5,190 bases of DNA, from positions 1 through 5,190 of the forward strand of contig JAQTTS010000172.1 of the NCBI GenBank assembly GCA_028710655.1. The letters are read 5' to 3'. The notes under the pieces were generated by a model that was given only the letters and a program-made list of their open reading frames with translations, made no database searches and had not been told where the DNA came from. Both the position numbers and the translations under genes were made by a program. Below are positions 1,092 to 1,808 of the stretch, one piece after another. Each line of letters opens with the position of its first letter. The stretch's first letter is position 1. The DNA comes from Dehalococcoidales bacterium (GTDB lineage: Bacteria; Chloroflexota; Dehalococcoidia; Dehalococcoidales; UBA5760).

Positions 1092-1808
1092 ATGCCTGAA
1101 GAGTTCAAGCCAGGATGCCAGAGGCCACCTATTAAGAAGCCGACTCTTGAAACTGTTCCTGCTACCGAGTTGAATGTAAAGGAGGCGAAACAAGCGATGG
1201 TAAAGGTAGGAAAACCAGCCCCCGATTTTACTGCCCCTGCTTTCTACAAAGGCAAGTTTATGAATACCAGTCTCTCTGAATATAAAGGGAAATGGGTATT
1301 GCTGTGCTTCTACCCGGGTGACTTTACCTTTGTCTGAGCGACAGAAGTTTCAGCAGTTGCTGAAAAGTATGCGGAGCTGCAAGACCTGGGTGTAGAAGTA
1401 CTGTCGGTCAGTGTGGACAGTGTCTTTGTGCATAAGATGTGGAATGACCATGAACTTTCCAAGATGATTAACAGGGACATTCCGTTTGCGATGTTGTCCG
1501 ATCAGGACGGCAGCATCGGAAAATTGTATGGCATATACGACGAGGATAGCGGCGTCGAAACGAGAGGCAGGTTCATCATCGATCCCGATGGCAAGATACA
1601 GGGATTCGAAGTGCTAACACCTCCGGTGGGCAGAAATGTTAGCGAATCTATCCGGCAAATTAAAGCGTTCCAACTGGTAAGGAATTCCAAGGGAACAGAA
1701 GCTACTCCTTCAGGATGGAAGCCCGGTAAGCCGACACTGAGGCCGGGCCCGGAGTTGGTGGGTAACGTTTGGAAAGTCTGGAAGGTAAGCCAGGCATTTG
1801 AGGACTGA
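1092..1808 (+). CDS. prxU: Selenocysteine-containing AhpC/Prx-type peroxiredoxin (UGA at codon 82)
   Basis: Reading the in-frame TGA at 1335-1337 as selenocysteine gives one 238-residue peroxiredoxin. Residues 1-36 are an N-terminal extension beyond the usual AhpC start. The thioredoxin-fold domain begins around VGKPAPDFTAPA. The active site is P75-GDF-T79-FV-U82-ATE, so Sec sits exactly where the family motif PxxxTxxC has its peroxidatic cysteine. RGRFIIDPDG (about 158-167) supplies the conserved arginine, and the C-terminal arm holds GWKPGKPTLRPGP. The frame has no other stop, and the halves join without a gap. The enzyme would reduce hydroperoxides in the cytoplasm. Its only cysteines are C9 and C72; the usual resolving position (VCPA..W) reads ATPSGW, so resolution must involve C9 or an external thiol. 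Selenoperoxiredoxins are known in anaerobes such as Eubacterium acidaminophilum. The alternative, a gene killed by a stop, is unlikely given the position and the hairpin. Confidence 0.88.
1335..1365 (+). promoter_or_regulatory. UGA(Sec) codon with downstream bacterial SECIS-like hairpin
   Basis: TGA at 1335-1337 is followed by a perfect 7-bp stem, TTTCAGC (1348-1354) and GCTGAAA (1359-1365), closing the loop AGTT. The loop G (1356) and U (1357) are bases 22 and 23 counted from the U of UGA. In the E. coli fdhF SECIS the essential loop G and U are near bases 23-24. A short stem with a G/U loop directly 3' of UGA inside the coding region is what SelB recognises in bacteria. It has not been scored with a SECIS model. 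Confidence 0.75.

Follow-up and report, generated by a model that had tools for sequence, protein, structure and literature searches.

The window, i.e. the whole stretch of DNA analysed (5190 bases), harbors a candidate gene for a selenocysteine-containing peroxiredoxin (prxU) with an in-frame UGA codon, and further genes recognised by profile matches. The following features were assigned:

1-432: pyridoxamine 5'-phosphate oxidase-like protein (PF12900)
1053-1084, plus strand: putative -10 box TATAAT (1053-1058) and ribosome-binding site AAGGAGG (1078-1084) of prxU, both found by eye
1092-1808, plus strand: prxU, predicted selenocysteine-containing peroxiredoxin of 238 aa with U82 (NF040737, PF00578, PF10417 and translation)
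1335-1337, plus strand: UGA for Sec82, the peroxidatic residue of P75xxxT79xxU82 (TGA in all of the best 80 relatives)
1348-1365, plus strand: SECIS-like hairpin with a 7-bp stem (1348-1354/1359-1365) and the tetraloop AGUU (1355-1358), assigned by covariation and synonymous-site constraint
1835-1865, plus strand: terminator-like perfect 12-bp inverted repeat 3' of prxU, found by eye
1947-2639, minus strand: Crp/Fnr-type regulator (profile match)
2752-4314: Hcp hydroxylamine reductase (hcp; profile match)
3' of hcp: cupin, followed by a zinc-ribbon-like protein (profile matches)

An in-frame UGA codon at the peroxidatic position

The reading frame that opens with the ATG at 1092 and closes with the stop at 1806-1808 contains a TGA at 1335-1337, which translation reveals as the sole internal stop within 238 codons. 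Read through, the gene yields a complete 238-residue peroxiredoxin within the 5190 bases of the window. With 405.5 bits against a cut-off of 270, this protein belongs to NF040737 (peroxi_PrxU); PF00578 and PF10417 score 133 and 25 bits, respectively. The frame is thus otherwise open through an entire peroxiredoxin C-terminus, as the original prediction had claimed; selenoperoxiredoxins are, as it remarked, already known.

Residue 82, the last of P75-G-D-F-T79-F-V-U82, occupies the peroxidatic position, and the window thus has Sec (UGA) as the U of the TxxU motif. The stop had been placed on exactly this catalytic Cys, with P75 and T79 numbered as found here. Alignment with Cys homologues, proposed as a check, gave the corresponding result, U82 being aligned with the Cys of AcePrx-1 (4fh8) and with Cys in nine Cys genes. 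It had also been foreseen that gene callers would split the gene, and the mechanical ORFs indeed run from 1086 to 1337 and from 1413 to 1808.

Conservation of the UGA codon and its alternative readings

In the species-genome collection, 441 relatives were confirmed by a scan, and the analysis was carried out on the best 80 of these. TGA is present at the Sec codon in every one of these 80 loci (best 80 of 441; 69-96% identity), the titles of which include Dehalococcoidia, Clostridia, Syntrophomonadaceae, Tissierellia, Spirochaetes, Desulfobacterales, Cloacimonadota and KSB1. The Cys homologues (n = 9) carry TGT or TGC at this position. Across 135 aligned genomic rows TGG never occurs there; L081-L092 (loci with sel genes) have no row in this alignment. 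Profile searches matched 14 of 400 genomes in the phylum of G001 (E 1e-60 or better; TGA inside 15 of 16 matches) and 28 of 63 in the class of G011 (TGA inside all 28 matches). For the order of G481, 60 of 249 genomes matched, and 52 of the 54 above-cut-off matches list a TGA anywhere in the match; one of six genomes matched in a small sample around G064, with TGA present.

The residues after Sec had been singled out as ATE, where Cys homologues were said usually to have PTE. ATE is present but not peculiar, since Ala follows Sec in the window and in all 80 loci (best 80 of 441), and PTE is also found in some remoter UGA members.

A sequencing error that turned TGC or TGT into TGA, or a recent nonsense mutation in a dying pseudogene, would be in keeping with a codon only one base away from these two within an otherwise intact gene. 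This explanation was rejected as extremely improbable because TGA is found at the same codon in all 80 independent loci (best 80 of 441); moreover, no further stop occurs within the 238 codons and synonymous sites are constrained across the hairpin described below.

Database entries would rather suggest that the host has UGA reassigned and reads it as tryptophan (or glycine): among the 120 listed of 7658 homologues, the site is occupied by W in 111, by C in 8 and by G in one. The underlying DNA argues against this. Over 238 residues, the W protein P0007 does not differ from the product of Syntrophomonas wolfei locus L017, in which the DNA reads TGA. Nine further W proteins match TGA loci at 98% or more, and P0111, the one Cys protein in this protein-to-locus comparison, matches L139, which has TGT. 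Within the window, TGA also terminates prxU and the cupin gene, and Trp is encoded by TGG at five places in prxU. Because these ten W proteins correspond to TGA loci and TGG does not occur at the site in the 135 rows, W is considered an artefact of gene calling; the simplest account is that Sec was read with a table-4 type code where contigs are short. Reassignment was rejected on these grounds and retains a negligible probability. A selenoprotein family is hidden by such alternative-code gene calls, which give Trp in 111 of the 120 listed homologues and Gly in one.

A SECIS-like hairpin downstream of the UGA

A 7-bp SECIS-like stem at a distance suitable for SelB had been predicted and was recovered at 1348-1365. 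Its arms UUUCAGC (1348-1354) and GCUGAAA (1359-1365) enclose the loop AGUU; the stem starts 10 nt after the UGA, and 17 nt lie between UGA and loop. For bacterial SECIS elements, one account gives 16-37 nt between UGA and apical loop (PMC10778597) and another describes this loop as small and G-containing (PMC1088965). With its 17 nt and the G in AGUU, the hairpin of the window has this geometry. It is the minimum-energy core in three of four folded stretches (z -1.92, -0.71, -1.54), and in stretch 1326-1380 an alternative fold beats it (z -0.71). Among 2000 synonymous recodings of codons 83-96, 287 fold equally well and 158 make all seven pairs. Taken singly, the hairpin of the window is weak and non-significant evidence.

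Scoring with a SECIS model had been suggested as a further check and gave no support: no SECIS family of Rfam matched the window at E values up to 10, and the single Rfam match above the gathering score was a tRNA, identified as tRNA-Leu. This null result was not taken as excluding a SECIS element, because bacterial SECIS elements are described as variable and an existing model as missing some of them (PMC12013277). As Rfam provides no match, the support for a SECIS element comes from conservation and covariation and not from a curated model.

Among 80 distinct sequences (window and loci, best 80 of 441), all seven stem pairs are formed in 66, six in 13 and five in one. The second pair is the least kept (70 of 80). 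Compensatory changes lead from A-U to G-C at the fifth pair, from U-A to G-C at the third and from U-A to C-G or G-C at the second. When the window and the 80 loci are reduced to distinct 45-nt stretches, 97.3% of the pair cells are formed, compared with a mean of 90.1% and a maximum of 92.4% in shuffled controls (n = 1000) and 39-74% in slid registers. Ranking of 194 scored codons by synonymous identity placed codon 89 first and codon 88 second, both of which are fourfold-degenerate (Val, GTT in 76 of 81; Ala, GCA in 74 of 79). The codons directly before this, for Ala83 and Thr84, are unconstrained, with synonymous identities of 0.29 and 0.25 versus a mean of 0.42.

Outside of the group L123-L135, which is treated below, six or seven pairs are formed in 111 of 113 UGA rows (98 of them distinct, the same gene being repeated). 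The nine Cys rows form two or three pairs only, and the hairpin is absent. This absence is partly trivial, because six of these rows come from distant genes whose protein sequence under the hairpin is different. The most telling Cys row is L139, which is near-identical in protein under the hairpin and reads TTTCTAC/GCTGCTA, with three pairs. Judged by this comparative evidence, the predicted hairpin is more than chance.

A shifted hairpin in related UGA genes

The least expected result of the analysis concerns 13 loci (L123-L135, 12 of them distinct), which contain related UGA peroxiredoxins with the motif U-PTE[LI][SA][HSG]IAV and have lost the window-type register. They show another 7-bp hairpin with an AUAGC/GCUAU core and a GUN loop at offsets 20-36 from the U of the UGA. 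Its stem starts 17 nt after the UGA and thus 7 nt downstream of the window-type position. All seven pairs are formed in 11 of the 13 rows and six in the other two, which represent one distinct sequence and break the loop-adjacent pair. Two of the seven pairs vary, with changes on both sides in each. Since the stem varies so little, the structural proof is weaker than for the main register. L143, a Cys member placed in this group, keeps four of the seven shifted pairs and has lost the three proximal to the loop, as read from its sequence. We lean, with some reserve, towards the view that the SECIS element moved within one selenoprotein family while the UGA stayed in place.

Selenocysteine machinery in related genomes

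The search for Sec machinery, proposed as the refuting check, was carried out on genomes of relatives. Two loci have the same neighbours as the window: L001 (titled Dehalococcoidia; 93% DNA identity over 4442 bases) and L002 (titled Dehalococcoidales; 92% over 4983 bases). Their genomes, G001 and G002, encode SelB (358 and 363 bits, respectively), SelA (in G002 as two pieces on two contigs) and a Sec-type SelD with internal TGA; an internal TGA in SelD itself was found in four Chloroflexota relatives. The syntenic relative G002 has all four of selA, selB, selD and tRNA-Sec, the latter with 71.2 bits. G001 (1.2 Mb), which contains the nearest protein, has no tRNA-Sec at E 1e-11. Its best match of 49.8 bits, above the gathering score of 47, was taken for another tRNA because G002 shows an equal score beside the 71.2-bit one.

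Among the genomes of the nearest relatives (n = 20), SelB over the cut-off and tRNA-Sec of at least 67.9 bits were each found in 18. Considering Chloroflexota genomes with prxU (n = 17), tRNA-Sec is present in 15 (missing in G001 and G007) and SelA in 16 (missing in G007). In G007 (0.9 Mb) neither SelA nor tRNA-Sec was found, nor SelB or SelD over the cut-off. In G051, another member of the Chloroflexota, prxU, tRNA-Sec, selA and selB share a single 1.73-Mb contig, so that misbinning is unlikely in this lineage. Across the phylum, 301 of 400 genomes have SelB over the cut-off, among them each of the 14 that carry prxU, and SelB is therefore a weak discriminator.

Genomes with Cys genes served as controls (n = 8); tRNA-Sec and SelA were found in seven, and both were not found in G546 alone, which holds the closest Cys gene tested. 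This is as expected after Sec loss. Six of the eight matches in these controls are distant peroxiredoxins under the NF040737 cut-off, and those of G484 and G546 lie above it. The genome of the ninth Cys gene (L108), G110, has tRNA-Sec and SelA. L108, a Cys relative with TGC and without the hairpin, resides in this Chloroflexota genome together with a UGA prxU (L097).

The UGA might also act as a regulated stop, which without selenium would give an 81-residue fragment; through Sec insertion, selenium would then switch the antioxidant response. Such behaviour is, we presume, a possible general consequence of SelB-dependent decoding and nothing specific to the window. The sequence data examined contain no sign of regulation, and a possible back-up copy (stopless, TGC) beside the UGA copy occurs in G110 alone among 14 Chloroflexota genomes. 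We regard a regulatory role as very unlikely.

At the level of sequence, the comparisons establish a Sec codon, a covarying and conserved hairpin and the Sec machinery of near relatives, and they point to Sec incorporation in the organism of the window. What looks like a stop in mid-gene is a true codon for selenocysteine, in this case in an uncultured anaerobe. It is almost certain that the gene encodes PrxU, an AhpC/Prx1-fold peroxiredoxin with Sec as peroxidatic residue that is decoded via SelB and the hairpin.

Predicted structure and reaction of PrxU

An AlphaFold2 model was calculated from an alignment of the window protein with 63 of the 120 listed homologues (A1). It has a mean pLDDT of 86.6 and a pTM of 0.82, with residues 17-33 under 50. 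The best PDB matches are of the Prx1/AhpC type (5ucx, 5zte, 1n8j; TM up to 0.94 by target length), so the modelled PrxU has the Prx1/AhpC fold. Fold and peroxidatic motif are common to the window and to typical 2-Cys peroxiredoxins/AhpC such as 4fh8 (AcePrx-1) and 1n8j (AhpC). In contrast to these, the window protein has Sec for the peroxidatic Cys, and ATP (ATPSGW) replaces the C-terminal VCP stretch (VCPAGW in 4fh8), which we take to supply the resolving Cys.

Instead, two highly conserved cysteines, C9 and C72, are the only ones of the prxU product. C72 is found in 81 of 81 close rows and C9 in 80, position 9 not being covered in the remaining one; neither varies in A1. All 13 rows of L123-L135, whose alignment covers no position 9, likewise have C72. 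R158 is invariant and presumably corresponds to the catalytic Arg of other peroxiredoxins.

A possible course of events would start with SelB carrying Sec-tRNA-Sec, which would bind the hairpin just 3' of the UGA at 1335-1337 and allow its decoding as Sec. Activated by the PxxxT motif and R158, Sec82 would attack the peroxide and form a selenenic acid, which may then be reduced by a thiol, either C9 or C72 or that of an external thioredoxin-type donor. Both this chemistry and the reductant are proposed from sequence features. Sec peroxiredoxins and the PxxxTxxU motif as such are already published (PMC13188914, PMC8533274).

Gene neighbourhood and phylogeny

Among the loci compared (best 80 of 441, many of them short), L001 and L002 are the only ones that have the neighbours of prxU in common with the window; one other neighbour match was found among the 80, a PNPOx at 33% identity in L080. 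With its Crp/Fnr-type regulator and hcp, the prxU region looks like a region for peroxide and nitrosative stress, judged by gene content. The PF12900 protein at 1-432 is weakly NimABCDEF-like (81.8 bits, cut-off 260). Between the divergent Crp/Fnr-type gene and hcp lies an exact palindrome, GGTAACCTACGTTACC (2657-2672), which is exact in L001 and has one spacer change in L002; it is possibly the operator of the Crp/Fnr-type regulator.

The tRNA-Leu 5' half recurs as a 41-nt direct repeat (90%) at 758-798 and 5119-5159, and the copy at 5119-5159 is a fragment adjoining what is tRNA-Cys in L001. The alignment with L001 starts exactly at position 758, to the left of which L001 has a different flank containing an ORF that resembles a transposase (IS3-like by eye). 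A recombination site around the prxU-hcp segment is possible.

A quick tree was built from 121 rows with the Sec column removed; nine repeated loci and four identical rows were left out. The window groups with L001 and L002 within a mainly Bacillota set, and the starred branches force at least three changes for the Chloroflexota UGA genes. This position and the forced changes suggest horizontal transfer of prxU. Support for the forks near the window is not strong, and L003 is possibly the product of misbinning.

Relation to known selenocysteine peroxiredoxins

A Sec peroxiredoxin of Eubacterium acidaminophilum was reportedly described by Sohling et al. 2001, and we take PrxU to be its name. 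The window protein is likened to it via the NF040737 cut-off and the TxxU motif. Lists of Prx selenoproteins with the TxxU motif name Sohling et al. 2001 as their source (PMC13188914, PMC9312934). The hosts differ, the window being Dehalococcoidia-like and E. acidaminophilum belonging to cluster XI of the Clostridia (PMC4056300). The product of S. wolfei L017 is 82% identical to that of the window, with TGA at the same codon and the same hairpin, but none of the five neighbouring proteins of the window was found in this 8.7-kb locus (E 1e-8). The S. wolfei Sec peroxiredoxin was already listed in 2006 (PMC1794560), and a 2016 survey counted Sec peroxiredoxin in 78 organisms, a number which may exceed this subfamily (PMC5029168). 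Formate dehydrogenases are a published case of Sec use in Chloroflexi (PMC4959059, PMC5736913). Among the open-licence papers listed by the searches, none dealt with PrxU in Dehalococcoidia.

The prxU of the window is a range extension of a known enzyme family, real but ordinary, and gives the Dehalococcoidia-like Chloroflexota a Sec peroxiredoxin with good support. With its two hairpin registers, the collection of UGA genes and Cys genes provides a ready test set for SECIS prediction. If true, the shifted hairpin would be a natural experiment on the spacing tolerance of SelB.
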